Virus record (IMG/VR): IMGVR_UViG_3300033182_000519
Span: 1-33,340 of that record
Strand: one strand, 5' to 3'
From: a virus
DNA: 33,340 nucleotides
In this document: positions 13,574 through 33,340 of the stretch, one piece after another
How the letters are laid out: each line of letters begins with the position of its first letter
Numbering within the stretch: position 1 is the stretch's first letter
Made by a program: the position numbers and the translations under genes
The notes under the pieces: generated by a model
What the model saw: the letters and a program-made list of their open reading frames with translations, nothing else
What the model was told of the DNA's origin: nothing
Databases searched by the model: none

Positions 13574-15739
13574 TTAGGTTACTGTGAATTTTGGTGGACC
13601 ACTTCTAATAATATAGTTCAATGTCTGGTATGGATTCATAATACCGATCGGACTTCCTAAACTAAATCCTGTACTTGGAGTATTAACCCCACCAGAGTCT
13701 GGTAGGTATTGTGCGTCACCCGGCGATGTAGGTCCAAACCCGGATGTTGATGTAGACACTCCAGTAGAAGTTGCTGTAGTATCTCTCGAATTAGTTACTG
13801 CTATCGCAGCATATTGCTGATTAGCGGTTCTCATAGTGTGAGAGTGATCAGGCAAGTTTCCTAATGTTAGTGAAACAGAACTCTGACCTGATGACGCAGC
13901 AAGCGTTGAAGCTTCAACACCTTCAACTCTTGCCGGACTAGGTTCGCCGCCGCCAGCATCTACGAAACCTCCTGTAGCATTTGGAACAGTTTGCCCGTTG
14001 TCCATATTATGCTTACCCAATGGGAATCTACCACGCAAGTCTGGAAGTCTGTAAGTGTTAACGCCGTTTAGTGGTGCTGTTCCATTATATCCTGTACCGA
14101 TAACATCGTATAACTCAGGGAATCTTGTTTTTTCAACTTCTGAACCATCACAAAATAAGAATCCTGTTGGTGCAGTTACACCTGCATACGGTAATATTGT
14201 TCCTATAGGAATACCTAAGTCTCCTACAAATACATCTCTAGATTGTTTAAGAAGACCACTCGAAGCACCTGCTGCTGCACTGCCTCTATAAACTAGAATA
14301 TAATCTGTTTTTTCTGATGTATTTGGAAGTGGCTCATCTTTACTTGTAATAATATTTGCAGTTAGAGATGTATTAAAGATCTTAGTGTAGCTACCTACTT
14401 GTCCATCGAATGTTATGGAAGGCGAAGCTACGTCGCCTGCCATTGAAAATGTTGTAATATTTTTTAAGTTTGTTGCAGTATTTGCGTTACCAGTAATATT
14501 ACCATCAATCGTACCAACAATTGTATCGGCTGTAATAGTTTTTGCTCTTACTGTATTCCAACGCAATGCTGTAGTACCAAGATCGTATGTTTCGGTTGAA
14601 GCCGGAACAATGTTTTTAGTTTTTGTTGTTCCTTCAACTAATAAACCGCTACCAACAATTAAACTTTTTGTTATTGCTGCTCCGCCTTTTGTTATAAAAC
14701 TTCCACTACTAAGAGATGATGTTTCTTCATCTCCTGTAATTTGAATTTTTCCTGTAACTCCGATATCTCCGTCTACATCTAATGCATTATTCGGAGATGC
14801 GACATTTATTCCTACTTTATCTTCAATTACACGAAAGATTGTAGACGGTATTCCGTCTCTATTTGTTTGCAAATCGATTGAACTACCGGAAGCCGAGTTG
14901 TATATCTTTGCTGCTGTTGCTGACGTGGAAACATTTAAGTTTCCGTCTACTCCTATTACTATACCACTATTATTTCTAACATTTATTCCGTATTCTGTTG
15001 TGTTTATTTGATCGGATCTTAGAAATTTTCCTGCCGGAACAGTAACATCATTAACTATTAAATTATCTGCGCTCTCTGCTGTACCAATTAATTTAGGAAG
15101 TGCTCCTCCTAAGAAAATTGAAGCAAATTCTGTCCTTTCAGTTTCAGTTGCCGGTGTAGCAACATTGATTCCTGCTTTAACTAAAGCAAAACCTGAAATA
15201 CCAATCTTTGGAGTAAATGTGTCTTTAGAAACTACTGCAACTGGAATATCTGCAATATAAAATACTAATATTCGTTTATCGTTATTATCCGAGTCTGCTA
15301 CCGTCTCGACAGCAGGACCATATCTTAAACCATCGATGGTGCTTTCGTCAGGTCCAACAAGTATCCATCTTGTTCCTGTATAAATTCTTAACTGCTGATT
15401 TGTAGTATCAACCCAAAGTTCTCCTACTTTAGATTGTTCTACACCGGGCTCCGTAGGAGCTTTTTGTATATTAGATGCTGCTTTCCAGTTAGTATTATCC
15501 CACAATTGTAATACACCGTTCGCTGTATCATACCAAATTTGACCTTCGATTGGGTTAACTGGTGCAGTTTCGCTGGCAAAATTCTCTAATAAATGTAAAA
15601 AGTTTTCGCCGATAATCTGACCATATCCAGTAACATTACGTCCCGGAAATGTTAAACTAGTATCTTGACTTGAAGTATTGTCATATACTGTAATTGGAGT
15701 TTTATTATTACTATCTGTAAAATTAACTGTATATGGCAT
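13574..15739 (-). CDS. Short tail fibre/tail-collar domain protein
   Basis: 721 residues. The shared fibre module fills the first ~130 residues (FPGRNVTGYGQIIGENF, LLENFASETAPV, GQIWYDTANGVLQLWDN, GELWVDTTNQQLRIYTG). At about 510-570 is a phage tail-collar domain: IGTILPYAGVTAPTGFLFCD, then LPDLRGRFPLGKHNMD. Near residue 630 LPDHSHTM supplies a His-x-His pair. In T4 gp12 and similar tips, equivalent histidines from three chains bind a metal ion. The C-terminus MNPYQTLNYIIRSG is the usual end of collar-type proteins. It is therefore the most gp12-like of the fibre genes, a host-surface-binding trimer is likely, and gene order just after baseplate genes fits. GAGG precedes the ATG, two bases from the upstream stop. 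Confidence 0.88.
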   Translation of the reverse strand: MPYTVNFTDSNNKTPITVYDNTSSQDTSLTFPGRNVTGYGQIIGENFLHLLENFASETAPVNPIEGQIWYDTANGVLQLWDNTNWKAASNIQKAPTEPGVEQSKVGELWVDTTNQQLRIYTGTRWILVGPDESTIDGLRYGPAVETVADSDNNDKRILVFYIADIPVAVVSKDTFTPKIGISGFALVKAGINVATPATETERTEFASIFLGGALPKLIGTAESADNLIVNDVTVPAGKFLRSDQINTTEYGINVRNNSGIVIGVDGNLNVSTSATAAKIYNSASGSSIDLQTNRDGIPSTIFRVIEDKVGINVASPNNALDVDGDIGVTGKIQITGDEETSSLSSGSFITKGGAAITKSLIVGSGLLVEGTTKTKNIVPASTETYDLGTTALRWNTVRAKTITADTIVGTIDGNITGNANTATNLKNITTFSMAGDVASPSITFDGQVGSYTKIFNTSLTANIITSKDEPLPNTSEKTDYILVYRGSAAAGASSGLLKQSRDVFVGDLGIPIGTILPYAGVTAPTGFLFCDGSEVEKTRFPELYDVIGTGYNGTAPLNGVNTYRLPDLRGRFPLGKHNMDNGQTVPNATGGFVDAGGGEPSPARVEGVEASTLAASSGQSSVSLTLGNLPDHSHTMRTANQQYAAIAVTNSRDTTATSTGVSTSTSGFGPTSPGDAQYLPDSGGVNTPSTGFSLGSPIGIMNPYQTLNYIIRSGPPKFTVT

Positions 15740-15741
15740 AA

Positions 15742-16383
15742 TTAAACCTCAGTAAAACCTGTTAAACTTTGTATGCGAATTGTATAATCAATTTGCAAAA
15801 TTCTATTAAGTGATTTTTGCACAGGATGAAAAACTACGTGAGTTAAAAGTTTGCCGTCACCTGCAGGATCATATGATCTCAATCCTAATTCATCAAAAAC
15901 AAAATTACTGTCCATATCAACACTGTTATCAAATGCTTCTTGTTCGTCCGGTTCACCGTAATCTAGTACACAACTAATAATAATATCGCTGTATGTTGCA
16001 CCTGAAATATGACGAATTTCCATTTTATTTCTAACAGGATCTACATTTTCTATGGCATTTTGATCTACTACTTTTGAATAAGTTTGATTATACAAACTAG
16101 AGTTAACACCAATTGTATTAGGCGTTAAGTATGTAATTAATCCTGTAGGATCAACTGTAGTTCCGCCGGTGCCGAACACCATTTCATAAATCCAACCTTC
16201 TCCTTGATTAGAAAGGCTTTTCACCATCGCCACACTCATGTTTTCATAGTGAATTGCATTGCGCTTGTCAATTAAGACTTCTCCAGTTTCTGGGTCAAAA
16301 ATCTTAATATGCCCTTCGAAATTAAAGCCTCCTGTTTCGTTAGGACGTTTTTCAAGGTTTTTGTTGTTTTCTTGGTTTGACAT
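15742..16383 (-). CDS. Putative virion/baseplate-associated protein
   Basis: 213 residues from the ATG at 16383. The start is chosen because the late promoter at 16409-16416 would place the transcript start near 16403. That makes the in-frame ATGs at 16443 and 16404 unusable, and the purine-rich GAAGAGAAAG sits just before 16383. The protein has a charged, disordered N-terminus (SNQENNKNLEKRPNE), then FNFEGHIKIFDPETGEVLID, NAIHYENMSVAMVKSL, IYEMVFGTGGTTVDP and a C-terminal FDELGLRSYD...THVVFHPVQKS segment. The pattern is beta-rich without catalytic residues. Position between the giant baseplate-region protein and the collar fibre suggests a baseplate or fibre-connector part. I cannot match it to a specific T4 protein. 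Confidence 0.78.
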   Translation of the reverse strand: MSNQENNKNLEKRPNETGGFNFEGHIKIFDPETGEVLIDKRNAIHYENMSVAMVKSLSNQGEGWIYEMVFGTGGTTVDPTGLITYLTPNTIGVNSSLYNQTYSKVVDQNAIENVDPVRNKMEIRHISGATYSDIIISCVLDYGEPDEQEAFDNSVDMDSNFVFDELGLRSYDPAGDGKLLTHVVFHPVQKSLNRILQIDYTIRIQSLTGFTEV

Positions 16384-16408
16384 ATCTTTCTCTTCGGTTT
16401 CCATAGTG

Positions 16409-16416
16409 TATTTATT
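16409..16416 (-). promoter_or_regulatory. T4-type late promoter before the 213-residue gene and fibre block
   Basis: The minus strand reads AATAAATA (NATAAATA late-promoter form). It overlaps the stop codon of the giant gene (TAA at 16414-16412). A start about 6 bases downstream gives a leader of about 20 bases with a GAGAAAG site before the ATG at 16383. It likely boosts fibre gene expression over the giant gene upstream. Confidence 0.55.
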
Positions 16417-19400
16417 CAGGTAACTTGGTAGTCTTTTCCGCAATGAATCTAGCGATTGGAGAATTGTTTTCTAACAAAGTAATACCGCTAGTTGCTGTAT
16501 TTTCTCCTCTATCGTACCAAGTATTACCAATTTTTCTTATAATTGAAATTCTAGTTCCAGCAGGAAGAGGTTGCGTTAAACGAATATAATCATTTATGCC
16601 GTCAACACTAAACTCTGCTTCTATTTGTTTATCACCTGCAGGACTGGTTGCAGAAATTGTTTCATCAAAAACAGTTACTGGCATTTTTCTAAGTCTAGTT
16701 CCTGCGCCAAACACTTCAATAGTGTCGCATTGTCCAAAATCATTAGGTATCGTGTTTCTGAACCAACTTGAACTTGCGCTCTTTTCTGGTACAAATCCAA
16801 TAGGTCCAATTAATAGACTGCTTCCGTCGCTGTAAAAATCTACACGATCTTGATTTTCTTTGTAAGGAAGAGACTCTTCTACACCAGTATTAACAACAGG
16901 TGTACCTTTTGGTGACAATTCTTTGATTGACGACCCTAAAGATCCTCTTCTAAGTTGCGAAAGTATATTTCCTGTTTTCTGCAAATATTCGATTCTTTCA
17001 TTGTTAATAATAACAACGCCTGGAATATTTCTAGAAGGTAATGGGGTATCCAATACCGAAGCATCTGTTACTTCGATTGTTAAATCATAATAGTATAAAT
17101 CTTTTGCTAATGTGACTTCTGTTTCCGAGAAGCGTTTAAAATGATATACATTTAACATATCTTTATAGATTTCATAAGCACTTGGCAATTTGTAGGTATC
17201 TACACCGAACATAACAATTTTAATTAAATCATTTTCTGTGGTTTCATTTATTAATTCTACAACCTTACGTTTAGTTAATACAGAATAATCTATATCTTGT
17301 GTCAAACGAATGCCATTTTTATAAACCCATACATAACTTGCAGATAGTGGTTCCCTAGTTAATCGATAATGTATTTTACCTCCGGTATATTCATCCGATA
17401 TCATTTTCATCGAAGGATATTCGCCAAACCATGTAATTTCTACTTTATCTCCTGGATTTAGTGCTACATCAGAATCTATTACAATATTATTTCCAATTAT
17501 AGAATATTCTGCTCTAAAGTCGTTTTCAACTACAATCTCGTCTCCGATCGAAAGTTTATCTTCTAATACTGTTATTTCCTTACTAGTTCCGTTATAAACA
17601 TAATCTGTAACGAAAATTCTTTCCACATTATTAATTAATACTCGAATGTTTGTAGGAAGAATTGCGCCTGCAGCTTCAAACGGATCTGTTCCTATCTGGA
17701 ATACATTATTAGTTCCGTCATAAACTACATATTTAGAATCTACACCACGTAGTGCAGTTCCATTTACTTCAACTAACATTGAAGCATAAGCACTACCTCT
17801 TGACAGATTTACAAAATTATCTAAATCAAAGTTTCTAGAACTTCCGTCAATTGTTATTTCTTGACTGTTTATTCGAACAATTGGTAACTGTGTTGAATCT
17901 ACGTCTGTTGCAGCTGATAAGCAAATAATTTTAACTGCTGCAAATCTTGCTGGTTTTTCAGCAAACTCAATTAATGTTCTATCAGTGGTATCGACTACAT
18001 CGGTGCTATTAACAAACCCAACATCTTTTTCTATACCGTTTACTGTTACGAATACATTAGAAGTATCATCGTAATTAGCATCTGTTAAAAATAATGATGT
18101 ATCGCCATCAGCTTCAAACTCCTGATAATCTAATAGATTCATGCCGCCAATTCCGATCGAAATAATTTCAATTACAGATCCTGTAACTGGTGCTGTTAAT
18201 AATTCTACTACATTGTTAACAAAATCAATTTCATAATCTACACCTGCAATTTTCTTAGATTTATCAACATATACTAATACTGAATTATTTTCTAAAATAT
18301 TCTGTCCTACAGCAAAAAATCTCTCGGTGCCATCGGCTAATATAATCTTACTTTGTACTGGAGCAGCTCCTTCTGGAGCTATCTGGAATACCTTAATACT
18401 AAAACTATCTAGTACTTGTCCAGGAACATTTTCTTCCGGTGAAAGGACCTGATCAGGATCAATAAATTTTCCGCCTTCGATAACAATTTCTTCTGCAGAA
18501 GTTCCGTTAGCAGTAGCATACGCTCCGTTCATAACTGCAAGACTTCCGCCTGAAATTTTAGTATCCAACAAGTTTGGATCCGATATAGTTACAGAACCGT
18601 CTGATTCTACAGGTCTGAAAATCAGAATGTCTCCTGTCTGAGTTTCTAAATAATCTTCTAATAAAACAGTATTGGTCGATCCGTCTCCGTAGAATGTTGG
18701 CATTTGTGCGTGAGGATTTGTTACAGAAGAACTGTCCCAGGTATTATCATAATTAGGATCGTCAATTCTTATTATTGGTGAATTAGGATCTACTCGTCTC
18801 AAATAAATGTTTAACTCTTGCCCTGCTTCAGGAGTGTATGGTAATGTAATAAAACTTGTGCTTCCATCGCAAACAACATAATAATCACTCGCCGCTTCAA
18901 CGCTATCCCACCCATCAGTGAACCAAGGCAAAGCGTCCCAACCGCCAGTTACTTCAAATGTTGTACCTTGAACTTGTACTCCACCAAAGTCAATACCAGT
19001 CATTAATTGACCTAACTCTTTACCTTTCATCCCCAATGATGGATTATAGTACTTGTCTATTCTATTAACGCTATCTAATAACTCGTCATTTTTTTCGTAA
19101 ACTATTTTAATAACATCTCCAGTTTCCGGAGGTGGGGTGAATGTTATTTTACCCTTCAACAACGAGAATGTATCTGTCGATGACTTATACAACGAAATTG
19201 TATATTCGTCTGCTAATGCTACTTGATTGTTTCTAGTAACTTGTATTTTACTTTTGTCTCTAGTTGGCGCATAAGACAAATTAAATACGCCGCTTGAACC
19301 AGACGCTACAAACGTTTCTTCGTATTCGTAATTACGATATACTCCGTCTTTTGTAATTCTATCAAACTTAATTCCTACATTAACAGTTCTAGCAACTGTA

Positions 19401-22400
19401 TTACCTAGTATTGCAACTGCTTTGCCTATTGCTGCACCTGAAGGATTCCCTCCAACTATACGAACAGTCGGAGCAACTGTATAACCTGATCCTTCGTTAA
19501 TAACTCGAACACCTACTAATCTACCGTTTGAAATATATGCTTGCGCTTCTGCACCAGTACCGTTACCTTCAATTACAACTTTAGGAACACTGGTGTATTC
19601 TTCGCCCGGTGCTGATACTTGTATTTCTACAATAGAGAATCCGTTATTATCATACCACCATTTCCAAGGATATTGTGTTATTCGATAATCTGATTTATTT
19701 ACAGGTGTTGTTGTTCCAGTTATTGTATCATATGCTACCGGAAGATCAAAATCAGCAACGCCTGTTGGAGCATCATCTGTTTCTTGATATCGGCTTATGT
19801 ATTTTCTAACTGTAGTTCTATATGGTTTGACTTCGTCAATATAGTCGGCATAATAAGACAACCCGTCATTTTTAAAGTTTGGTCTTCTACAAAAACATCC
19901 AATGGTATGAGTTGCAGTTAAGAAACTAGTCTTAAATGCCCAATTTATATAGTGCTGTTCTGCTAGAGCATAACGTATGCAAGAGAAGAATAACAAGTTC
20001 CATTGATTTTCATAATCCCCATTGAAAATATCATCTTTAAGAGCTGCTAAGATTTTTCTTACTTCTGCAGAATTTTCTACATCATACAATCCAGTATCAA
20101 ATGATCTATTATTATCATATCCAATTCCAGATAATGTAGTATCGTATATTGTAGACAATAGTTCGATAGTACCCAACTCTCTTCCTACTAAGAGCAAATT
20201 ATCAAAAGGATTTAATTCTGTATCTGAAATCTTTTCAAATACTGCCCAACCACCAGCACCGTATTCCTTAACTTTTATTAAATCTCCGACATTGAGATTT
20301 AGTAAATTTTCTTCATACAGCATACTAAATTCAGCAACAATTCTTGATGTCACGCCATATCCAGCCTTCCACCAATCTTTATATTGCCAATATCTTCTAG
20401 TATCAAACGATTGAGAACGTATTCTAAAGAATGATCGTCTGTCATCATCCCACGCATATATTCCCCAGAAACCGTTTGAATTTTCATCAGAACTAATAAG
20501 AACACTATACGGCCTTACCGATGCAGATGCTTTGGTATATTTTCTTCCTTTTGAAGTAACTGTTACTGAAACAACTTGTCCTTGATTGTCAATTGTACAA
20601 GTAGCTTCTGCTCCTGATCCATTTCCTTTTATTTCAACTGGTGGAGCAACTTTATAACCGTAGCCGGAATCAATTATATCAACTGATGCTATTTCTCCAT
20701 CAACAATATTAGCTGATAAAGTAGCAGTCCTAATTCTAATTGTTCCTACTGTTTGTAAATCAATATAATTTTGTATAGATTCATCATACAAATTAAGAAG
20801 ACTACTTGGTTCTTCTTCGAACGAATTTAAATTATCAAAATCAATAATATTTGCAAAAGGTTCTAACTCTAAAATTCCATTAACCCTATCTACCATCATT
20901 CGTAGTAGTTCAAGTCTATCTTTGAACATACTCTGGCGAGGACGGAATTTTAATCCGTATTTTTGTTTCTCTGGTAAGTTAGGATCTGGAACTCTATTTC
21001 CTTCTTTGTCGTAACCTACTATACTATCAATCCATTTTTCTTCTAGCTTAGTAGAAGGCACGCTTGTTGCAACACCTTCGCTCAATAATTGATATTCGTT
21101 ATGAACTGGATTTTTAACTTCTATATCTTTATAATATTGTATGTTTAATAACGCCGTATCCGTTGAAATAACATTATCAAAGTTATAAGCAAGAAGTTTA
21201 TCCGAATCTATCAATGACAAATATGTAATATTTAAGGATGAAGGATTCTCAATAAGCAACGATACAGTTGCCGCAGAAATTCTTCTTCCGACTACATCTG
21301 CCGGAATAACTGTGGTGCTTTTTACCCAGAAATAGTAATATGTGTCAACTACTTCTCCTGTTACAGGATTATAAAATTGTTTGACACTATAAACAGTATC
21401 ATCTGGATGCTTTGGCTGTCCTGAAATTCCTACTGCTAATCCTTCGTTTGTATCAGCTAATACACTCCACTCCGAAGGCAACAGTCTTGTCTTAACCCAT
21501 TCATAAACATCAATACTTGCGCCAAACGCTAACGAATTCCAATTACCAACACGATAAGCAATATCTCCTTGTTCGTAATGAACCCATTTAGCAGTACTTA
21601 AATCCCACCATAGTTGTCCAACATTCTTTTCAGACCATGCTGTTCTCGCATCGACTACAACACTGTCTGTTCCTATTGTATATGTTGCAGGATCATACAG
21701 TGTCTTAAATTTTAACTCTTGCTCAGCAATGTCAAGAATTTTAAGTTTTGCGTGATCTACTATGTCAACATCTTGTATTTTTAAATCATTAACATTGTCG
21801 TAAAGTGCAATATTTTTTAATTTTTCAAAATCAACAACAGGAGTCTGCTGTGTTAATACTTTAAATGAACTTACTCCTGATTGTTTTGTAAACGCTCTAA
21901 CCGTTCCAGTCTTAGAACCATCATATAATACAAATCCGTCTAGTTGTATATTAGGTTCGATGTAATCAGGCGATCCTACTATTACTTTGCTATCAGTACA
22001 TGCAACTGACCAACCAAACGACTCATTTAATGATAAATCTGTTTCTAACTTTTCTGTCAGCAAATAACGCCCGTCTTTGAGTTCATAGACATAAACAGAT
22101 CCAGCAAACCCTTGTTTGCTACTAAAACTAGTTCTGCCTTCATCAAATGATGTTGTTGAACTATCAAATCTTACAGGTAAATCAAAAGGAGAATTGTTAG
22201 CACCTACAGCAATCATTCCTGTATTTGGACTAATGCATATGCTTTGTCCAAAATATTCGTTCGGATACTGCTCATAACTTTCTAGTTTTTGCTTCAATCT
22301 AAATTGCAAGAAAGAACTATCTGAATCGTATTTGAACACATATGCAGATCCTTGATTCTGATAATTAATATCAGCTTTTGGACTAGAAATTACAAGTGTA

Positions 22401-25400
22401 TTTCCTGAATAATCCAACGACATAGCGTGAGCAAACAAGTCGCCTGAACTAATTGTTTCGTCTGGGTTTAAATCATTAATTGCTTCTAAGCTGCCGGCTG
22501 TGATTGTCTGATCTAGGTTATAAACACCGTATTCATTTCGTCTGTATACGTGTGCTTTTCCTATAGGCTCAGCAGAACTATCGCCAACATTTGTCCATGG
22601 TAATCCTTCGTCAGGTGGCTGGTTGTAGCTTCTAATCGTTGAATCTACAGGATGCCAACCATCATTAATTAATTTATGATAATGATCTTGGTATTGTACT
22701 ACTGCTCCTTCCACATATTCAACGTCTGGTCTCCATATACCTTGATAATTTGCAAAGTATTGTCCATCTGCTTGCGGAGAACCTACAACTAATACACTTG
22801 CATCATAGTTAGTTGTCAAAGTTGTTCCAAACTTATCTCCATACTTGATAAGTTCTGCCAACTGTGTCGAAGTTAGCATTCCAGATGCTAATGTAGAACC
22901 GTCATCTTCTAATGAAACGCTTTGCGGCAATGAACATTGTGTTACTACTGAGTCTAATCTTACCCAATCGTTGGATAACAATGTAATTGTGCTACCGTCT
23001 CCGTAATTGTCTGCGGTTGCTTCCCAAAATGCACTTTCTTGCCAAACAATCGATCCTTTAGGATAAAATGTAGATCCTGTATTATCGTATCTTCCTCTAT
23101 AATTTGGATTTTCTGCATGATACCACTTGTTAGTTGAATCATAATTAAAGATATAAACTCTTCCTTTTTCGTTTAAAGAGCCCGTTGCAGAAACTATCAT
23201 TGTGTAGCCGGTAGTTGTTTTCCCTATAACTACACTAGATCCAAATAATTCATTTTCGTCAGGTCGAGGACTTAATAAAGTATATCTTAAGTTCCATTGT
23301 TGATCCGCATATTCGTAAGCAAACACCGCACCTTGATTAGAGAAACCTGGGTGTGTTCCTGTGTCATACCCTTCAATTACAAGAGCTGGTTCCCAATCTT
23401 CGCTATAAACGTTTATTGTGCTGCCATCTCCAATTACATCTCGAGTGGCTTTCCAAAGTTTACCGTCATAAAGAACAATATCACCGGTTAGGTAAGTTTC
23501 AGAAGGATCAAAAATTCCGTTAAAAGCAGAACTAATTCCGCTGGCGTTTGGTGCGCCTATAATTAACCATTTATCGTCCGGACTCTTTGCCATAGACAAT
23601 CCAAACGAATTATTAAGGTTGTCTTTAAAGTCATCTGGCGGTGCAACAATTTGTTTCATCTTTAAACCGGAAGAGGTTTCGATGTAGCTCATTACATAAC
23701 CTGCCGGTGGCATACTAGCAAGTATGTTAGTTGTTGTATTATTATAGAGAACTTTATAGCCTGTTTTTATTGGGTCTGTTATACCAAAATCTGCTATTCT
23801 ATTATAAGAATATTGTTTTTGCTTTTGTACAACTTCCCACAACCCATTTTCGTTGTGATCTATCCATAATTTAGATCCGTCTTTTAATAATGCTGCTGAT
23901 TGTAATTCAATATCATTGTAAGAATTAAATCTCGACTCTTGCAACACATACAATCCAAAATATGTACTTTGATCTATCTCAGGCTCTTGTGTATTTTCTG
24001 GAACTTCGATAGTTACATAATACTCGTTAAAGATTCCATCCTTAACTGTTTCAACGTTTGAAACTTTGAAAAATCCAACCAAGTTAACAATTGTTTTAAT
24101 ACCTATAATATCTCCTATTTCAATATTATGAGGTTTATTAATTGTAAGTATTGCGTCGTTATTATTTCCTAAAACTGCATTAACTACTAGTAACTCTTGT
24201 GCATAATGAAAACGTAATACAGTCCAAGTATCATTATCAAATGTTACCCATATGTGGTCATTATCATTAAATGCAGAAATATCTCCTGTTAATAAATCAT
24301 CTCGATTTCTTATAACAAATGTAGGTTGGTCTGATTTAACATAACCTGCTGTACGAATTGGTTCTGCATCATAGGACAATAAATTAACATCTGTGGTGAA
24401 TGGGATAGATTTTATTGTGAAATCTTCTTCAGGAACTCTATAGTAAAAATCAATAAACGTGCCTGGATCATTTTTCACCATTATTAATGGTTGCGGATCT
24501 GTTTCAAATTTATTCTTAAATAATTCGATTTCAGTTTCTACAATCTGATCAGTGCCGCCTAGTTCGCCTATTCTAAATGCCCATTCTTCATTTAACTCGA
24601 TACTTCCACCAGACTGACGAACGCTCAGTTTGTCAAATACTTTGTTAATTGAATTCGCTGTACCTTTTTCTCTAATAAATCCTTGGTATAGCTGGAATTG
24701 TGTTACAGGATCTTCTGCTAGATTTTCTAGATATTCTCTAGTTTGATAACCAATAGCGTGCCTTGCTAACTGTCTTTGAGTATCGCTTAATCCGTCTGTT
24801 GACACATCGAAGTAATCTTCAAACTCTGCAATTCTGTAATCAAAGTTAGGAATTAAGCTCTTAGTTGGATTTGAATCTAAGATTGTCCAATAGTTTGCAT
24901 TAAACGTTTCTGTTCCGATATGGTTTGATTTAGAAGTCCAATATTTTGATTTGTAACCAACAATGTCTCCCAATCGATAATCTTGGAAAGGTGTCCATTT
25001 TTCAATAGAAACATTATCAAATATAAACCCTGGGCTGGTATAATCCCCGTCCCAATCCACTGTGCGGAATCCTTGAGATTTTATTCTTTCTTGTCGATAA
25101 CCAGTTGCTTTATCAAAAATTATATCATTGAAAACAGTTCTATGATCAAATACTGTAATATGTTCTTTTAACACAAAATGAAGTTTTAAGTAATAGATAC
25201 CTTGACTAGTGTTTTTTGTGTTTATAATAAACTTTTTAAAATCTCTCTTAACATCGATATATTTTGGATCTAATGGTTGGCCGTTTCCTTGCAAGACATT
25301 ATAATCGTAGAAAGAATCTAATAAATTATCAACTACACCAACAGACCCATCAATTTCAATAGTAGATGCTGCTGGACTTAATGTTATTAAAGATCCAATC

Positions 25401-28400
25401 GCCCAGTTATGTTTGTTCCAGAAAACAAATTCTTTACATGCTGTTGTCCAGTCTTGTGCAACTTGAGACTCGCCATCGTAATTATTAAATAAAAATCCTT
25501 CACTCTTTAGGTATGCTTCATAACCTAATAAGAAATCTACAAGCTCTTGAATTCTTATAAATTTAGTTCCATAACTTAATCTTAAAACTTTTAGGTTGTT
25601 AAAGTTTCTTCTCTTTTGAAATTCTACAGCACCCACTAACGGTAATTTTGGTAATTTAGCCCAAACAGTTGTATCAAACGAAGTTGTACTAGTATGAGTT
25701 TTTAAACATCTATAATATGTACCATTGTATTCTGCTACAACACCGTTATTATATAACTGATCTGCTTTCCATGTAACAAACGATTCACTAATTCCACCAA
25801 CACTGATTGTTGGATCTTTTTGGTTAGCTCGAGGTTGGAAGTATTCAAAATACGGTTTTGTATCATCGTATCCTGTAACAATCCATCCGCCTTCAGTTTT
25901 TTGTACAATTACTCCGCTGTAGGTTAATGTTCGAACAGGGGTACTAACATTAAAAATAATATCGTAATTTTCCGGAGGGATATAAATGTTACCAGATGAT
26001 GAACTTGGATTTTTACTATCTAGCAAATATTTGTGTTGGTTTTTATCAACAAAACCTGATAATCTTGTAGACAACTTAACATCTAGATTTGTTAAAGCAT
26101 CTACGATATTTGATGCGTCAACACCAAAAGATTTGGCATATGATGCAACATAATTTATTAATCCTGCAGACAAATCTACACCAGCGACTGGAACAGTTAT
26201 ATCTTCTAATGTTTGATACAATAATGTATTTTTATTAACCAGTTGCCCTGCAACATTTCTAGTTGTTACTGATCTGTTTAAATTAGACGTAATAAAATCA
26301 AACGGTCTTAACAAGCACATTGCTATAGTTACAGCGAACGGCCAGTCTGAGCTAGATCTCCAAGCATATTCTACTGGAGCAACATCACCTAAAACAAACG
26401 GGCCTTTGTTATTAATTAATGTGAAGTTATTTGCAAGACCTGAATCCAAAGGACTTAACAAGTTACCTTCGTCGTCTACCGGTAAATGATTTAATATTCC
26501 TGGTCTCTTATATCTATCAACAATACCAGCTCTGTCTCCTTGACGGATTATACCAGCTTCTAAATCTTCCCACAAAATTAAGTTGCCGCGTGTGTATGGT
26601 GCGGGTCCGTATTCTTCTTCCCACCAATCTGGTTTTTCAGAAAAACCTAACATTTCCCACGGACGAACATGTGGTCTATCTGTATCATAGAACCATTTGT
26701 ACACACCTCTCCACCAACCTGGAATATTTTTAGTATCGGTAGGATCGGTCATATTTGAATAAGTGTAAGTGAAAGAGTCTTCACTATCAAAATATTCATT
26801 TAATGTATATCCGGTATTTGTGTTGTTAATCCATTTTAAAAATGTTTGAGTAACAATGTCGTCGAACTCTGATTTAGAATATAAACCGTAGCCGTAATAA
26901 CTAGACACTACTTTATCTAAATCAAATACATTGTGATCATATTCAATTTTAATATTATTATAAATTCTTAATTCAAGTTCTAATATTAAATCGTCTCTAA
27001 AATCACCGTAAGTAAAAATAATACTTCCGTCGTGTCCTTGTATTACTTCTCGTGGCGTAGAATACGTGTCGTCGATAAACTTCATAGGTCTGTATTTTTT
27101 ATACATACCTAAAACAGTTGGCGTAGGAGGAATATGACAAAATGCTGTTGTTACATATTCTCTAATTTGAATTCTATCTCCTTCTGCTAAATCAACAAAC
27201 AGTCTTACAAAACCAAAAGTACCATCAAACTCATAATCGGCGCCATTTAAAAGTTGTCGATTATTTAGATATACATATACAGCCTTTCGACTCATTTCAG
27301 TTAAATCAAACTTTTCGCTAAGTGCAAAAGTTTTTATTCCGGTGTCTTCAACTTCATAATCGATAGAATTATAAGCACCCGTACCAATCATGTCGGTATC
27401 AGCAAATGGACTTTCAATATTTTTTGTTATTGTTAAACTTTTAATAATATCATCTAAAAAGTCTGCAATATTTTCATTAAAATCAATCTCTGTTGATTTG
27501 TTAATCAAGTTATTTTTAAAACTAGAATATTGATTCTTAGAATATTCTATAGATTTAATAATATTATAAGTTTTATCGCATAATAATTTAACAGATAATG
27601 GTGTTATACCAGCATGCTTCATAAAACGCTTTGCGTGCTGTTGATAATCTGACAAATCTCTTAAATTAGAAGGACCAGGTATTACTCCATCAAACCTATC
27701 ATCAAATTCTAAAGAACTGTTTAAATGATCTAATGCTTGACCTAATGTAAACGATTTTAATTCTTCGTTTAGAGGATTTTTTTCTAATCCTTCAGGCAAT
27801 TCATAATACCCATTCTTAGGTTCAATATCTGCTAAAATCTTAACTGACAATACATCATTTTCATTAAATGTGGTATTATCAAAGTAGAATGTATTTCCTC
27901 TTCTAGTGTACGTGTCTCTTAAAGGATAACCATTTAAATAAAATTTAATTATCGACTCTTCTAATTGATCAAATTCATCCCAATCTACAGTTAATAAAGA
28001 TCCGCCTGTGGTTTGTCTTATTAAAACTGTACTGTCAATTATAGGTTGCAATCTGTCATTGCTTGTACGAATCCACCCGTTTACATATTCGCTACCTAAT
28101 TCGTAAAATCCTGTTGAAATCTTTTTAGAATAGTTAACTTTTTGCTCAGTCCACGTAAATGTATCAGTATCCCAGTCCCAATTAAATTCAATATCGCCTA
28201 CGTTATCAATATTGAGATAACTTAATGGAAAACCTAATTCTGGATCTATTCTTCCGTTGCCTTGTTTATAACTTAAAATATTACAACCATTAAATGTATT
28301 ACTTGGATATGTTTCGGCGTTTCCAAGACTTACACCGTTTTCATTGAATACATCGAATTTAGGAGGTTGGTTAACTGTTGTTTTTTCTTGACTTTTTACC

Positions 28401-30154
28401 CATTTAGAACCGTCATAGTGCAGCATAGTGCCAGAATTTTTATTTCCTCTGCGAACAAGAACACAATCGCCTAATACCGATTCGGCGTCCTCTGTTTCAA
28501 CTAGATTTATTTGACGTTTTCCATTGTGAGTTATAAAATTAACTTTATAAATTTTATTATTTGCTAAACTATCAGTGTCTGCTACTACAAGTATTCTTGC
28601 TCCTGCAAATAAAAACTCTCCGTCAACATTGTAGGTTGAACTTCCTTCGATTTTTGAAAATACATCTGTAGTATAATCATCCACATAGTCAACAGTTTGT
28701 TTGGCATTTATTCCGTAGTTAAACAATTTTAAATTTGGCAGGAATTCAATTATTGGACGTTTTGCTCTTGCAGTTTCGGGTGCTTCAAATACTCGACCTT
28801 TTTCTGCATACGCACGTTCAATGGCATTTCTATGGAACCATCTATTATAACGACTCCACGGATTATTGTCTTTACTACTTCTAGAAATAGTGATATAATC
28901 TTTTACTGATGGAAAACTAGTCGCATCATCAAAAGGTTGCGTATCAAAACCTTCATTATCATATAATACCTCAGGAACATCCGATGTTAATGTAGGTGCA
29001 ACTAAATCTTCGAATTTTATTAATTCTATTTTATTTCCAACGCCCTCAATTAACCAGGTACCTGTAGCATACTTTTCTGGTAAAACTGTATTTTTAAATT
29101 CTACAATTAAGCCATTTGTAAATTCAACGTCATTACTAGAAGTGTAATATGATTTTCCTAATATCTCCTTTTCAACATCAATCAACGTATTGGTATCGAT
29201 GTCTGCGATAATAAATCTCCCTAATCTAAAAGGATCAATATCACTTTGATAATATAAATGATCAGGGGCATCTAATGGAACTGTAAACGTTAAAATTCCT
29301 TTTTTAACTCCGTTATTAGTAACACCGTCTGTGTAGTCTAAACTATCTCTAGAAGCATTTTTATCTAATAATTCCCAATCTTGGCTATCTATATCTATAC
29401 TGCTTCCGTCGCCTGCATCAACATCTTGTTTTGCACGCCATAATTTTCCGTCATATACTGCAAGTTCTCCGGCACTATAATCTCTGTTAGGAACAAATAA
29501 TAATGATCCGGTATCATAATTTGTTCTTAGTGTAAATCCTTCTCCGGGAGAATTTACATTAAACTCATATGTTTGTCCTCTATATAAAATTAATTCAGGA
29601 TTAATAGAATATCCGTCTGGAGTGAACACCCATCCTGATCCAATTCCTTGTTTAACTTTATATGTGCTTTGTATTCCTTGACGTTGTCCTTCAACTGCGA
29701 CTGGGCTTGGTCCAAGAGGTAACCAATAATATTCTCTATAATTTACAAACTTATCCCAATCAATAGGAGGATTCCAACTGTAATGTTCTTGAAAGTTTAG
29801 TTTGTTATCTTTTTCGTTAGTTGTTCCAAAGAAATTTAACTGATTTTTAAAATCTAAATAATCATAAAAATCCGTTATGTTTTCTTCGTTATCAGTTGTA
29901 ATGACACCTGGTTCTAATTGATATCTACTTCTTAACGTTTCGTTGGTGTCTAGATAAATGCTAGAACCATTAAATGTTTTTCCGTATCGGCGGCCTACAT
30001 ATCCAACTATTCTATCCAACACACCTGGTTGAATTAAAGGATCAAATGCTCCTGCAAAGAACTTTTCGTTTGCAGTTGTTCTAAAAATATTAGGTAGAAA
30101 ATCTACCGTTCTTCTTATAGGTAATTTACTTTGAGGGAACGCCTTTTCATCCAT
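16412..30154 (-). CDS. Giant 4580-residue virion protein of the baseplate/tail region
   Basis: 4580 residues in one open frame. The N-terminus (residues 19-60: DFLPNIFRTTANEKFFAGAF, IVGYVGRRYGKTF) is of a type I associate with very large structural proteins of T4-like marine phages. About 1138-1198 is Trp-rich (WWRGVYKWFYDTDRPHVRPW). About 2180-2770 looks like an FG-GAP beta-propeller. Six modules resembling chitin-type CBM5/12 folds occur near residues 221, 1455, 1718, 2211, 2352 and 2475. Two GNG(S/T)GAEA beta modules lie at about 3155 and 3511. Repeated NGxxL..DY...I.L...GD.I.I segments follow to about 4295. Near 4378-4420 is INNERIEYLQKTGN.LSQLRRG. Its ATG overlaps the upstream wedge gene as TAATG. 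It occupies the gp7/gp8 position of the T4 order, so a baseplate or adhesin role is inferred. No protease, nuclease or signal peptide was seen. Confidence 0.85.
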   Translation of the reverse strand: MDEKAFPQSKLPIRRTVDFLPNIFRTTANEKFFAGAFDPLIQPGVLDRIVGYVGRRYGKTFNGSSIYLDTNETLRSRYQLEPGVITTDNEENITDFYDYLDFKNQLNFFGTTNEKDNKLNFQEHYSWNPPIDWDKFVNYREYYWLPLGPSPVAVEGQRQGIQSTYKVKQGIGSGWVFTPDGYSINPELILYRGQTYEFNVNSPGEGFTLRTNYDTGSLLFVPNRDYSAGELAVYDGKLWRAKQDVDAGDGSSIDIDSQDWELLDKNASRDSLDYTDGVTNNGVKKGILTFTVPLDAPDHLYYQSDIDPFRLGRFIIADIDTNTLIDVEKEILGKSYYTSSNDVEFTNGLIVEFKNTVLPEKYATGTWLIEGVGNKIELIKFEDLVAPTLTSDVPEVLYDNEGFDTQPFDDATSFPSVKDYITISRSSKDNNPWSRYNRWFHRNAIERAYAEKGRVFEAPETARAKRPIIEFLPNLKLFNYGINAKQTVDYVDDYTTDVFSKIEGSSTYNVDGEFLFAGARILVVADTDSLANNKIYKVNFITHNGKRQINLVETEDAESVLGDCVLVRRGNKNSGTMLHYDGSKWVKSQEKTTVNQPPKFDVFNENGVSLGNAETYPSNTFNGCNILSYKQGNGRIDPELGFPLSYLNIDNVGDIEFNWDWDTDTFTWTEQKVNYSKKISTGFYELGSEYVNGWIRTSNDRLQPIIDSTVLIRQTTGGSLLTVDWDEFDQLEESIIKFYLNGYPLRDTYTRRGNTFYFDNTTFNENDVLSVKILADIEPKNGYYELPEGLEKNPLNEELKSFTLGQALDHLNSSLEFDDRFDGVIPGPSNLRDLSDYQQHAKRFMKHAGITPLSVKLLCDKTYNIIKSIEYSKNQYSSFKNNLINKSTEIDFNENIADFLDDIIKSLTITKNIESPFADTDMIGTGAYNSIDYEVEDTGIKTFALSEKFDLTEMSRKAVYVYLNNRQLLNGADYEFDGTFGFVRLFVDLAEGDRIQIREYVTTAFCHIPPTPTVLGMYKKYRPMKFIDDTYSTPREVIQGHDGSIIFTYGDFRDDLILELELRIYNNIKIEYDHNVFDLDKVVSSYYGYGLYSKSEFDDIVTQTFLKWINNTNTGYTLNEYFDSEDSFTYTYSNMTDPTDTKNIPGWWRGVYKWFYDTDRPHVRPWEMLGFSEKPDWWEEEYGPAPYTRGNLILWEDLEAGIIRQGDRAGIVDRYKRPGILNHLPVDDEGNLLSPLDSGLANNFTLINNKGPFVLGDVAPVEYAWRSSSDWPFAVTIAMCLLRPFDFITSNLNRSVTTRNVAGQLVNKNTLLYQTLEDITVPVAGVDLSAGLINYVASYAKSFGVDASNIVDALTNLDVKLSTRLSGFVDKNQHKYLLDSKNPSSSSGNIYIPPENYDIIFNVSTPVRTLTYSGVIVQKTEGGWIVTGYDDTKPYFEYFQPRANQKDPTISVGGISESFVTWKADQLYNNGVVAEYNGTYYRCLKTHTSTTSFDTTVWAKLPKLPLVGAVEFQKRRNFNNLKVLRLSYGTKFIRIQELVDFLLGYEAYLKSEGFLFNNYDGESQVAQDWTTACKEFVFWNKHNWAIGSLITLSPAASTIEIDGSVGVVDNLLDSFYDYNVLQGNGQPLDPKYIDVKRDFKKFIINTKNTSQGIYYLKLHFVLKEHITVFDHRTVFNDIIFDKATGYRQERIKSQGFRTVDWDGDYTSPGFIFDNVSIEKWTPFQDYRLGDIVGYKSKYWTSKSNHIGTETFNANYWTILDSNPTKSLIPNFDYRIAEFEDYFDVSTDGLSDTQRQLARHAIGYQTREYLENLAEDPVTQFQLYQGFIREKGTANSINKVFDKLSVRQSGGSIELNEEWAFRIGELGGTDQIVETEIELFKNKFETDPQPLIMVKNDPGTFIDFYYRVPEEDFTIKSIPFTTDVNLLSYDAEPIRTAGYVKSDQPTFVIRNRDDLLTGDISAFNDNDHIWVTFDNDTWTVLRFHYAQELLVVNAVLGNNNDAILTINKPHNIEIGDIIGIKTIVNLVGFFKVSNVETVKDGIFNEYYVTIEVPENTQEPEIDQSTYFGLYVLQESRFNSYNDIELQSAALLKDGSKLWIDHNENGLWEVVQKQKQYSYNRIADFGITDPIKTGYKVLYNNTTTNILASMPPAGYVMSYIETSSGLKMKQIVAPPDDFKDNLNNSFGLSMAKSPDDKWLIIGAPNASGISSAFNGIFDPSETYLTGDIVLYDGKLWKATRDVIGDGSTINVYSEDWEPALVIEGYDTGTHPGFSNQGAVFAYEYADQQWNLRYTLLSPRPDENELFGSSVVIGKTTTGYTMIVSATGSLNEKGRVYIFNYDSTNKWYHAENPNYRGRYDNTGSTFYPKGSIVWQESAFWEATADNYGDGSTITLLSNDWVRLDSVVTQCSLPQSVSLEDDGSTLASGMLTSTQLAELIKYGDKFGTTLTTNYDASVLVVGSPQADGQYFANYQGIWRPDVEYVEGAVVQYQDHYHKLINDGWHPVDSTIRSYNQPPDEGLPWTNVGDSSAEPIGKAHVYRRNEYGVYNLDQTITAGSLEAINDLNPDETISSGDLFAHAMSLDYSGNTLVISSPKADINYQNQGSAYVFKYDSDSSFLQFRLKQKLESYEQYPNEYFGQSICISPNTGMIAVGANNSPFDLPVRFDSSTTSFDEGRTSFSSKQGFAGSVYVYELKDGRYLLTEKLETDLSLNESFGWSVACTDSKVIVGSPDYIEPNIQLDGFVLYDGSKTGTVRAFTKQSGVSSFKVLTQQTPVVDFEKLKNIALYDNVNDLKIQDVDIVDHAKLKILDIAEQELKFKTLYDPATYTIGTDSVVVDARTAWSEKNVGQLWWDLSTAKWVHYEQGDIAYRVGNWNSLAFGASIDVYEWVKTRLLPSEWSVLADTNEGLAVGISGQPKHPDDTVYSVKQFYNPVTGEVVDTYYYFWVKSTTVIPADVVGRRISAATVSLLIENPSSLNITYLSLIDSDKLLAYNFDNVISTDTALLNIQYYKDIEVKNPVHNEYQLLSEGVATSVPSTKLEEKWIDSIVGYDKEGNRVPDPNLPEKQKYGLKFRPRQSMFKDRLELLRMMVDRVNGILELEPFANIIDFDNLNSFEEEPSSLLNLYDESIQNYIDLQTVGTIRIRTATLSANIVDGEIASVDIIDSGYGYKVAPPVEIKGNGSGAEATCTIDNQGQVVSVTVTSKGRKYTKASASVRPYSVLISSDENSNGFWGIYAWDDDRRSFFRIRSQSFDTRRYWQYKDWWKAGYGVTSRIVAEFSMLYEENLLNLNVGDLIKVKEYGAGGWAVFEKISDTELNPFDNLLLVGRELGTIELLSTIYDTTLSGIGYDNNRSFDTGLYDVENSAEVRKILAALKDDIFNGDYENQWNLLFFSCIRYALAEQHYINWAFKTSFLTATHTIGCFCRRPNFKNDGLSYYADYIDEVKPYRTTVRKYISRYQETDDAPTGVADFDLPVAYDTITGTTTPVNKSDYRITQYPWKWWYDNNGFSIVEIQVSAPGEEYTSVPKVVIEGNGTGAEAQAYISNGRLVGVRVINEGSGYTVAPTVRIVGGNPSGAAIGKAVAILGNTVARTVNVGIKFDRITKDGVYRNYEYEETFVASGSSGVFNLSYAPTRDKSKIQVTRNNQVALADEYTISLYKSSTDTFSLLKGKITFTPPPETGDVIKIVYEKNDELLDSVNRIDKYYNPSLGMKGKELGQLMTGIDFGGVQVQGTTFEVTGGWDALPWFTDGWDSVEAASDYYVVCDGSTSFITLPYTPEAGQELNIYLRRVDPNSPIIRIDDPNYDNTWDSSSVTNPHAQMPTFYGDGSTNTVLLEDYLETQTGDILIFRPVESDGSVTISDPNLLDTKISGGSLAVMNGAYATANGTSAEEIVIEGGKFIDPDQVLSPEENVPGQVLDSFSIKVFQIAPEGAAPVQSKIILADGTERFFAVGQNILENNSVLVYVDKSKKIAGVDYEIDFVNNVVELLTAPVTGSVIEIISIGIGGMNLLDYQEFEADGDTSLFLTDANYDDTSNVFVTVNGIEKDVGFVNSTDVVDTTDRTLIEFAEKPARFAAVKIICLSAATDVDSTQLPIVRINSQEITIDGSSRNFDLDNFVNLSRGSAYASMLVEVNGTALRGVDSKYVVYDGTNNVFQIGTDPFEAAGAILPTNIRVLINNVERIFVTDYVYNGTSKEITVLEDKLSIGDEIVVENDFRAEYSIIGNNIVIDSDVALNPGDKVEITWFGEYPSMKMISDEYTGGKIHYRLTREPLSASYVWVYKNGIRLTQDIDYSVLTKRKVVELINETTENDLIKIVMFGVDTYKLPSAYEIYKDMLNVYHFKRFSETEVTLAKDLYYYDLTIEVTDASVLDTPLPSRNIPGVVIINNERIEYLQKTGNILSQLRRGSLGSSIKELSPKGTPVVNTGVEESLPYKENQDRVDFYSDGSSLLIGPIGFVPEKSASSSWFRNTIPNDFGQCDTIEVFGAGTRLRKMPVTVFDETISATSPAGDKQIEAEFSVDGINDYIRLTQPLPAGTRISIIRKIGNTWYDRGENTATSGITLLENNSPIARFIAEKTTKLPE
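21865..23610 (-). other. FG-GAP-like beta-propeller region with inserted carbohydrate-binding-like modules (part of the giant protein)
   Basis: Six repeats begin with an FG-type strand ending in a GAP/GSP-like turn: FGLSMAKSPDDKWLIIGAP, FGSSVVIGKTTTGYTMIVSA, FGTTLTTNYDASVLVVGSP, FAHAMSLDYSGNTLVISSP, FGQSICISPNTGMIAVGA and FGWSVACTDSKVIVGSP. Each is paired with a later strand of the GxVYxFxYD type (for example GRVYIFNYD, GSAYVFKYD, GSVYVYELKD). This is the layout of integrin-alpha-like propellers, although the classic calcium loop is not well kept. The first three repeats carry inserted YxxGxxVxYxGxxYxA modules. Boundaries are approximate. Confidence 0.6.
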
Positions 30155-33100
30155 TATGTATTACTCGTATTGTTACCAACTTCTGAAGTTGTAATAGCAG
30201 ATACTATTTCCACATCGTCTACTTTAGCACCACTAATAAAAATTTCGTCTGGTTGACTTTGAATTTCAAACAAACTTCCAAATCCCTGGTCGGCTTGTCT
30301 AGGAACTATAACTAAGTTGCTGACATCTAGAGATACTTGACCTAGTATGTAAGTTGTTAATTCGCTTAGGTAGAATCTGTCACCAAAGTCCCAATTATCA
30401 ACCGAGAAGAACGAATTTATAGCAGAAATTATTCTAACCTTTAGATTGTTATCATTTACAGATCTTGAAGGATTTTTAACTACTTTAAATTTTGCCTGTA
30501 CTTTGGTATCTGCTTCGGCACCAAATAAAATTTTATATTTTACTGGGTGGAAAACTATTTCATCACTTATGCTTTTTATTAAATTCAATGACGATCCGTA
30601 ACTTCTACTTAAACTGTCAGTAGTTGGACGTTCAGGTTTAACAGAAGATCCTCCTGAAAGATATCTTCTGTAATCTATATCATAAGCACGTGTCAAAAGG
30701 AATACATCTATAATGTTACTAACGCTAGGATCTATACGTCTATTATCGCTTGCATTGTGTATATACTGGAATTTAATTCCTTTTCTTCCTATATTGGCTG
30801 TATACGAACTTTCTAAAACAAGTGTATTGGTAGTCAAATCAACACGCTTTACACGATCTTCATTAGCATCATAAAAATAAACAAGTTCCCCGTCTAGCAT
30901 TTCGTCTTCGGTGCCTGGCCAGAAATCAAAAGAAGTAATTAAAGATTCTTTTTGATAAACTCTAATTGGAGTTGTTTCAGTGTCTACCAATTCATATACT
31001 GTAGAACCATAATTGTCTAAAGTTTCATTGAAAAATAAGTAGTTTAAATCTAAATCTTCGCCTACAACTTTTTCAAAAGATTCTGGATTATCGATAACTC
31101 CATCTGCATCCGAGTCGCTAAATGCTATTTTAACTTTGTCTGTGCTTTCATACCCGTCGTCAAACTTAATTGTGTCGTCTATTTCAAAAACAACATCATT
31201 AACTAAAGGAGATATTAAATCGCTTGCGGTATTAATACCTAAAATTTTAACTTGATCTTTTGCAACTTCGCCGGTTACTGAATTATAAGACTTTTCATTA
31301 ACATCAAAATAAAATCTATTTTGACTAATGCTTCCAAACACATAATCTAAAGTTCTAATTCTAACAACATATTCGTCTGCTTTTTTAATGAATGCTACCA
31401 TCCAAGATGAATCTAAATTTTCATTAGTAGTGTCGCCGGCTTTACCTAAACTAAATGGAGTGTTAGTAGATAAATTAGCGGTTTGAATGATTTTCCAAGA
31501 AGCTGTAACTCTATCATAACGTAATCCAAAGTCTATATTCAATAATATAAAGTTTGCAATTTGTGTTTCTAATGTAGGACTAAGATCATTAACAAACTTT
31601 GGAACTATTCTGCTGGCTATCGCGCCGCTAGGAACAATGTCACTAAACACAACGGGCCCTAACCCTGTACTTAAAATTCCTCTTCCAGCATTAGTACCGT
31701 CACCTGATACGCTAACAACTTTTGTCCAAATATAAGACGTTTGTTTAGAATCCGTAGCATCTGTATCTACTAGTTTTCCTTTCTTAAATGATTTACCTTC
31801 AGGAGGAACAAATTTAATACTGGCTCCTGATAATACATATTTTAGACTGTTTGTTGCGTACGATGCAACTTTAAGCAACCCGCCGTCTACATAGTTTTGA
31901 AAATAACCAGTATTCTTATTAATATCTTCAGTCACACTTACCCAACGTGTATTTGTATCTGTAAATAAGATTTTACTAAACTTGGTTAGATAAAAATTAT
32001 AAACATCAGTACTAGTGAATACCGGCTCTAGTTGATTTTTAATAAAAGTAATAACTTGTGTACGGTTGGTATATTTAAAACTTAAAGATCTCAACCCTTC
32101 TTGTTTATAAATGTATCCGTCATCAGCAAAAACATTAATACTGCTATACTTTCCGCTTGCATCGATTACGTCAAAATTTCTACTAATTCCACTTGATGTT
32201 CTATTAATTGCTTTTACTTTTAAAATATCTTGACTACTTGTTAACGGTGCTAAATTGTAATCCTCAGCAGTAATCATTCTGTTTTGCGTGTAATACTGTG
32301 CAGGAGCATTTTTTCTTATGTTTGCAATACTTTCAGCAGAACTTGCTGAACCTACAGTAACATCCAACCCTAGTCCAATAGTTAATGTATGTTCGACGCC
32401 TTGTTTATTTTGATATCTAACAGCAATAGAAATATTTCTCATTTCGTTTGGAGAAATATTATATGTTAGCCCATTACTAACTCTATAATAGACTCTAAAT
32501 GGTCCTTGTGGTAAGTTACCGTATACGCCGTCGGCGAATACTAAATCGATCTTATCATTTTCTTTAGTTTGTATAGAATAAAAATTTCTAATTCCATTTT
32601 CAATACTGTTGTATGCAATGTTATTTCCCATCAAACTAGATACTTTTGCCCACTGCGAAGACTGAGCACCGTTTGATGTCATTTTAAACAACCACACATC
32701 GTCGTTGTTGATATTTTTACTATCAATACTTACTTTTTCATTTGTTGTCGGAACGCTAATTGCAAAATCTGCTACTTCTAATGATCCTTGTTTAAACATT
32801 AAAAAGAATCCGCTATTAGCACTACCTGGACCTCTTCCGTCTTGACGATATACAAATCCCAATTGATTTCCAGGAACCGGAGCTTCTTCATAAATTGAAT
32901 TACTATTTTTAAACGACGTACTAACAAGTTCAAACGTCATACGTTTTCCTGCAACTGTTTTATTAAAGGTATAGATTGGAACGTCTGAGTTTATTGTTCT
33001 AAAACGATATTGTTGCGAAGCAATGCCTTCAATTGTAGCATTGCCCTGGCTTCTGCCAAATTCAGTATTATCTGCCATGGCGGCATTAAGAATCAAAGTA

Positions 33101-33340
33101 AACTGTTCTGCCCAGTTTGCATTTGTTGGATCGTTCCAAACAACAGTTTGTTGGGAAAGATTTTTTCCGTTACTATCTACTAGTTGTTCGCTTGTAGAAA
33201 TAGATTTAAACTTTAATAAACCTTTAGCACACTTGTTACGCTTTGCATTATAAGAAAGCATACGTGCAATTCTTAATACACTTTCTTTTCTACTTGCAAG
33301 CTCTATAAAATTTTCTCTACTAGCAAGATCCACACGGAAA
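30154..33340 (-). CDS. Baseplate wedge protein, gp6-like, 5' end missing
   Basis: At least 1061 residues are visible; the frame is still open at the right edge (codons TTC CGT precede the GTG at 33333), so the true start lies outside. The first visible part, SRENFIELASRKESVLRIAR followed by MLSYNAKR, resembles the early region of T4-type gp6. Residues about 334-358 (numbered from 33333) contain NIRKNAPAQYYTQNRMITAE followed by DYN, the R-AP...Q-R..T..DY signature of gp6 and baseplate-J-like proteins. gp6 forms the ring that joins baseplate wedges. The remainder is beta-rich, and the C-terminal ~150 residues (VKYKILFGAEADTKVQAKFK, WDFGDRFYLSELTTYIL) look like the conserved end of the family. 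T4 gp6 is about 660 residues, so this is a longer form with extra insertions. It could instead be a gp6/gp7-type hybrid. The stop overlaps the giant gene's start by one base. Confidence 0.78.
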   Translation of the reverse strand, partial: FRVDLASRENFIELASRKESVLRIARMLSYNAKRNKCAKGLLKFKSISTSEQLVDSNGKNLSQQTVVWNDPTNANWAEQFTLILNAAMADNTEFGRSQGNATIEGIASQQYRFRTINSDVPIYTFNKTVAGKRMTFELVSTSFKNSNSIYEEAPVPGNQLGFVYRQDGRGPGSANSGFFLMFKQGSLEVADFAISVPTTNEKVSIDSKNINNDDVWLFKMTSNGAQSSQWAKVSSLMGNNIAYNSIENGIRNFYSIQTKENDKIDLVFADGVYGNLPQGPFRVYYRVSNGLTYNISPNEMRNISIAVRYQNKQGVEHTLTIGLGLDVTVGSASSAESIANIRKNAPAQYYTQNRMITAEDYNLAPLTSSQDILKVKAINRTSSGISRNFDVIDASGKYSSINVFADDGYIYKQEGLRSLSFKYTNRTQVITFIKNQLEPVFTSTDVYNFYLTKFSKILFTDTNTRWVSVTEDINKNTGYFQNYVDGGLLKVASYATNSLKYVLSGASIKFVPPEGKSFKKGKLVDTDATDSKQTSYIWTKVVSVSGDGTNAGRGILSTGLGPVVFSDIVPSGAIASRIVPKFVNDLSPTLETQIANFILLNIDFGLRYDRVTASWKIIQTANLSTNTPFSLGKAGDTTNENLDSSWMVAFIKKADEYVVRIRTLDYVFGSISQNRFYFDVNEKSYNSVTGEVAKDQVKILGINTASDLISPLVNDVVFEIDDTIKFDDGYESTDKVKIAFSDSDADGVIDNPESFEKVVGEDLDLNYLFFNETLDNYGSTVYELVDTETTPIRVYQKESLITSFDFWPGTEDEMLDGELVYFYDANEDRVKRVDLTTNTLVLESSYTANIGRKGIKFQYIHNASDNRRIDPSVSNIIDVFLLTRAYDIDYRRYLSGGSSVKPERPTTDSLSRSYGSSLNLIKSISDEIVFHPVKYKILFGAEADTKVQAKFKVVKNPSRSVNDNNLKVRIISAINSFFSVDNWDFGDRFYLSELTTYILGQVSLDVSNLVIVPRQADQGFGSLFEIQSQPDEIFISGAKVDDVEIVSAITTSEVGNNTSNT

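Follow-up and report, generated by a model that had tools for sequence, protein, structure and literature searches.

A seven-bladed FG-GAP_2 propeller predicted at a variable site in the giant wedge-region protein of an uncultured jumbo phage

Giant protein and flanking genes

The window, by which is meant the whole 33,340-nucleotide stretch of IMG/VR record IMGVR_UViG_3300033182_000519, contains an ORF of 4580 amino acids on the minus strand (16412–30154) encoding a giant virion protein of the phrog_10938 family (PHROG, E = 5.5e-303). Its N-terminal scaffold (residues 1–1892; 24479–30154, minus) is common to jumbo phages that lack the propeller described below, the C-terminal scaffold (16412–21865, minus) is conserved from residue ~2764, and both flanks of the propeller are phrog_10938, as the scaffold profile match indicates. 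Homologous scaffold was found in seven isolates, PA5oct, Atu_ph07, Phosso, SCTP-2, 2.275.O, 121Q and RaK2, at ~24–31% identity; the annotation of the PA5oct homologue, gp355, describes a virion protein seen by mass spectrometry.

The giant gene adjoins a gene for a gp6-type baseplate wedge subunit (30154–33333, minus; phrog_10646, E = 4.5e-254; T4-type phrog_219, E = 4.8e-17), an arrangement repeated in PA5oct, Atu_ph07, Phosso, 121Q and RaK2. These matches support the first-pass annotation of the sequence, which had placed a propeller inside a giant virion protein of the baseplate region. The position of the giant gene after gp6 is consistent with the T4 gp7 wedge gene order, and gene order suggests a baseplate location for the protein. 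Profile searches with the scaffold found no homology to T4 gp7 or gp6, the gp7 comparison using two scaffold profiles built on few sequences.

On the other side, the giant gene is followed by a conserved phrog_11259 neighbor (15742–16443, minus; E = 6e-72), which has ~80% identity in relatives; most downstream neighbors are ~45–57% conserved in longer stretches of the relatives' loci. Four fibre-type proteins are encoded nearby (6668–8413, 9377–11647, 11668–13560 and 13574–15739) and have related N-terminal ~190–260 residues, as if plugged into a single attachment point; the protein at 13574–15739 has a tail collar domain. In the gene at 9377–11647, the first ~470 residues are kept in relatives and the C-terminus beyond them is non-conserved. 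An apparent loss of this C-terminus in relatives was discarded, since the loci ended there and longer stretches contradict it. Amid the fibre genes, 8880–9410 gave a weak 2OG-Fe(II) oxygenase match, and the adjacent ORFs at 4760–5737 and 5754–6668, which lack PHROG matches, are paralogues sharing 36% identity across ~330 columns.

Repeat family

Residues 2080–2830 of the giant protein matched Pfam FG-GAP_2 (PF14312) with E = 6.3e-20 (71.5 bits; cut-off 23). When the whole 4580-amino acid ORF was searched, FG-GAP_2 was the top Pfam match (E = 2.5e-15) and CBM_5_12 the second-best family, and FG-GAP_2 was matched individually by all 52 aligned sequences (E ≤ 0.01). All six segments previously reported, each running from FG to GAP or GSP and followed by a GxVYxF strand, are present between residues 2182 and 2763. 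The integrin FG-GAP family PF01839 scored 13.1 bits on the same region, under its cut-off of 22.1, and the strict DxDxDG calcium motif was not found in residues 2080–2830; the sole loose match to that motif precedes blade 1, outside the blades, and occurs in 7 of 52 relatives. By these two family tests, the domain is not an integrin. Searching 50,697 phage records with the propeller by tblastn gave no match at E 1e-3, and sequence searches against solved structures gave CBM-type matches only and no propeller.

Predicted fold

The fold was modeled with AlphaFold using 52 sequences, comprising the window protein and 51 from viral contigs, which gave a mean pLDDT of 81.2 and a pTM of 0.79. A model from six close relatives had been too poor to use (pLDDT 54), a defect that the 52-sequence alignment remedied. 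Strands in the model form seven blades of four strands each, and a further strand at the N-terminus occupies the "Velcro" position of integrins. Integrin alpha heads ranked first in a Foldseek search of solved structures. With VIA-align, integrin alphaL aligned at 3.0 Å across 360 residues (Z = 36.5) and the seven-bladed WD40 ring 3fm0 at 2.6 Å across 312 of its 328 residues (Z = 32.2), while 367 of the 441 residues of integrin alphaV aligned in one piece; the alignments start at model residue 28, which corresponds to chain residue 1 of the integrins. All blades are covered, because the alphaL and 3fm0 alignments span the ring, and the alignment of nearly the whole closed WD40 ring and of alphaV indicates that the modeled ring closes.

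The general seven-bladed fold is secure in the model, and within the limits of prediction both the fold and the family of its repeats can be taken as settled. Integrins are the nearest solved fold to the model, by a margin over WD40 that is not wide. The FG-GAP propeller originally called is thus upheld by the FG-GAP_2 score, the seven-bladed model and the rank of the integrin alpha heads; the model, hmmscan and the fold search gave neither of the results that the first-pass annotation had set against its own call, namely failed closure or matches to unrelated fibre modules only.

The domain, with its inserted modules, spans residues ~2113–2769 (21848–23818; minus strand here and for all blades), as judged from Pfam, AlphaFold and fold matches. 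The interval first proposed, 21865–23610, lies in the right region and falls short of this span; its six segments correspond to blades 2–7 and missed blade 1, which makes seven blades in total. An N-terminal strand (2115–2120; 23795–23812) is the probable closing strand on blade 7, based on the predicted strand and the structural alignments. Blade 1 (2135–2170; 23645–23752), upstream of the first interval, consists of four predicted strands without the FG signature. Model strands place blade 2 at 2187–2293 (23276–23596), blade 3 at 2304–2346 (23117–23245), blade 4 at 2445–2551 (22502–22822), blade 6 at 2635–2702 (22049–22252) and blade 7 at 2716–2769 (21848–22009), the B-C loops of blades 2 and 4 being split by small modules resembling CBM5/12; blade 5 (2578–2624; 22283–22423) is the best Pfam stretch and the clearest FG-GAP_2 unit. 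Repeat spacing is irregular because several blades are split by such modules. The stretch SLPQSVSLEDDGSTL (residues 2408–2440; 22835–22933, minus) is highly conserved in relatives and has very low model confidence. An eighth blade formed from SLPQSVSLEDDGSTLASGML, within the same residues, was rejected, as pLDDT was mostly <50 and no blade strands were present.

The predicted domain shares with the integrin alpha propeller its seven four-stranded blades, the FG...GAP signature, an N-terminal strand placed where it would close the ring and the placement of extra domains in B-C or D-A type loops. It differs in matching FG-GAP_2 and not PF01839 above cut-off, in having only 15–18% identity, in blades without DxDxDG, and in lacking both thigh domains and a partner of the integrin beta type.

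CBM5/12-like modules and loops

Three modules interrupt the propeller (all minus strand). Module 1, in loop B2-C2 (2212–2259; 23378–23521), matched CBM_5_12 alone with E = 2.3e-5, just under the cut-off; module 2, in loop D3-A4 (2353–2402; 22949–23098), has the sequence pattern of module 1 and no Pfam match alone; and module 3, in loop B4-C4 (2470–2524; 22583–22747), gave a weak match alone (E = 0.024). Taken as a whole, the propeller region scored 29.5 for CBM_5_12 against a cut-off of 26.2, with single propeller modules below the cut-off or unmatched, and 51 of 52 relatives matched the family. On this sequence evidence "CBM-like" is the right strength of label for the propeller inserts. Elsewhere in the giant protein, a module outside the propeller (1458–1504; 25643–25783, minus) matched Pfam above cut-off (E = 1.1e-6) and a weaker one (221–266; 29357–29494, minus) fell below it (E = 0.0048). 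Long arrays of CBM5/12-like modules were also seen in ORFs of 1846 and 2786 amino acids from related viruses (G001 and G003; records L124 and L126). Since such modules are also present in other parts of the giant protein and in further viral ORFs, they need not serve the propeller.

The small inserts share their sequence pattern with CBM5/12 chitin-binding modules (ChiA1, 1ed7; chitinase, 2rts) and with Anabaena Cis19/All3316, and differ from the chitin-binding modules in that two of the three score weakly or go unmatched when taken singly; chitin binding by them is putative. The family profile at module 2 matched All3316/Cis19 with E = 0.0015. In the Anabaena contractile system, Cis19 forms baseplate crown trimers, and a truncated All3316 mutant has been described (PMC8894136); we read that paper as meaning that All3316 is Cis19. 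Since it matches a baseplate crown protein, the small CBM-type fold may be structural. Contact with glycan by the modules is plausible from their sequence.

In the window propeller, the A-B and C-D loops are all 2–6 residues long; B-C and D-A loops range from 4 to 98 residues and house all three CBM-like inserts. In propellers generally, B-C and D-A loops are often the longer ones. Strand order and topology suggest that the loops with the three modules share one face; if blade 7 is closed by the N-terminal strand, the chain ends would exit from the opposite face. In the 52-row alignment, a subset of relatives (L034, L046, L048–L051 and similar loci) carries an insert of up to 195 amino acids in loop C3-D3, on the face opposite to the CBM-like inserts. 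Insert content differs between relatives.

Conservation and selection

Pairwise identity was calculated among the window protein and 37 distinct full-length relatives. The propeller core averaged 52.6% and the inserts 43.7%, with scaffold parts at about 55–63%. Values of pN/pS were pooled over 18 closer pairs, some nearly duplicate, and regions of the giant protein were compared with each other. The core came out at 0.074 and the CBM inserts at 0.127, against 0.079 and 0.087 in the scaffold and 0.144 in the linker that precedes the propeller. The propeller core is under strong purifying selection, similar to that on the scaffold, and the 18 pairs gave no sign of diversifying selection in it. 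This constraint, gauged against the protein's own scaffold, argues against a fast-evolving receptor-binding tip.

Distribution of the propeller

In all seven isolates examined, the site flanked by the two anchors (at residues ~1892 and ~2764) is occupied by 250–1530 amino acids of other sequence without FG-GAP; in Atu_ph07 and Phosso this sequence consists of long glycine-rich repeats. The phrog_10938 giants (PA5oct gp355, 121Q gp582, RaK2 ORF070 and those of Atu_ph07 and Phosso) have the same scaffold on both sides of the site and differ from the window protein in what lies between. Among environmental loci, the best 80 of 582 were sampled by the C-terminal anchor; both anchors were intact in 74 of these, and all 74, which are nearest relatives, partly redundant and non-independent, contain the propeller. 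The outlier L151 (PAOW01000002.1) has the same gene layout, carries FG-GAP_2 at the corresponding site and has a C-terminal part with ~31% identity, so the arrangement is not confined to a single close clade. This record is filed under a Euryarchaeota MAG and resembles a jumbo phage tail region. A viral scan with the SCTP-2 anchor found no relatives, and one with the compact L115 propeller found four loci only.

The same propeller fold occurs in FG-GAP proteins of other large viruses (Phosso and Atu_ph07 ORFs; uncultured Caudovirales and giant-virus BFVD entries), which differ in being stand-alone where seen, outside a wedge-region giant protein. In Phosso (PV764938; ~48–69 kb and ~92–94 kb), two further giant ORFs of 3702 and 3182 amino acids, which contain most of its 42 FG-GAP_2 matches, are accompanied by ORFs of ~400 amino acids, and Atu_ph07 (NC_042013) has a 409-amino acid FG-GAP ORF at ~243 kb.

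Possible function of the propeller

The reading we favor, and hold at about even confidence, is that the propeller acts as a rigid accessory platform and presents small modules close to the baseplate. An integrin-alpha-like FG-GAP_2 propeller would be built into the variable site of the wedge-region giant protein, with its ring anchored by the two ends on the scaffold side and its B-C and D-A loops bearing CBM5/12-like and other small modules on one face. These modules would either touch a glycan, on the cell surface or in the environment, or provide docking points for further parts of the tail. The exposure of one face and any binding by propeller or modules are inferences, as is the position on the baseplate. 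We rank generic surface or glycan contact a little above pure docking, since lineages can dispense with the propeller, which nonetheless carries varying modules of binding type; an adhesion role is plausible.

It is somewhat unlikely that the propeller and its CBM-like modules are a purely structural part that braces wedges or docks fibre proteins and makes no cell contact. Scaffold-like constraint favors such a role, as do the presence of the propeller in 74 of 74 intact relatives (from the best 80 of 582 loci) and the match of a CBM-type module to All3316 (Cis19) of the Anabaena crown trimers (PMC8894136), but insert content varies among relatives, and isolates with the same scaffold do without the propeller, which is thus not needed for a basic baseplate.

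Quite unlikely is a receptor-binding propeller, the view taken in the first-pass annotation, in which a specific host receptor would be recognized by the face or the CBM modules, setting host range apart from the tail fibres. The integrin-alpha fold, the CBM5/12-like inserts in ligand-face loops and the greater variation of inserts than core (43.7% versus 52.6% identity; pN/pS 0.127 versus 0.074) would fit; the core, however, is conserved like the scaffold with no sign of diversifying selection, and four separate fibre-type proteins are encoded adjacent, one of which (9377–11647) has the non-conserved C-terminus. Chance beta-rich repeats in a fibre-like protein with no propeller, to which the poor shallow model from six sequences (pLDDT 54) could have pointed, are highly improbable given the Pfam match (E = 6e-20), the deep-alignment model and the full-ring matches.

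On a broader proposal, an integrin-alpha-type propeller would serve a widespread group of uncultured jumbo phages as a second tail-end adhesion organ. Its ring would show several modules that bind glycan, all on one face, and would sit at a fixed site in the wedge-region protein, a site that in other lineages houses different modules. We consider this broader proposal unlikely as it stands. No paper describing such a propeller was found in the literature searched, which leaves out most subscription papers. The analysis places an integrin-like propeller in a protein of the contractile phage tail region and points to a fixed site in a giant protein where lineages carry different accessory modules, providing a concrete target for studying the initial contact of jumbo phages with cells or particles.
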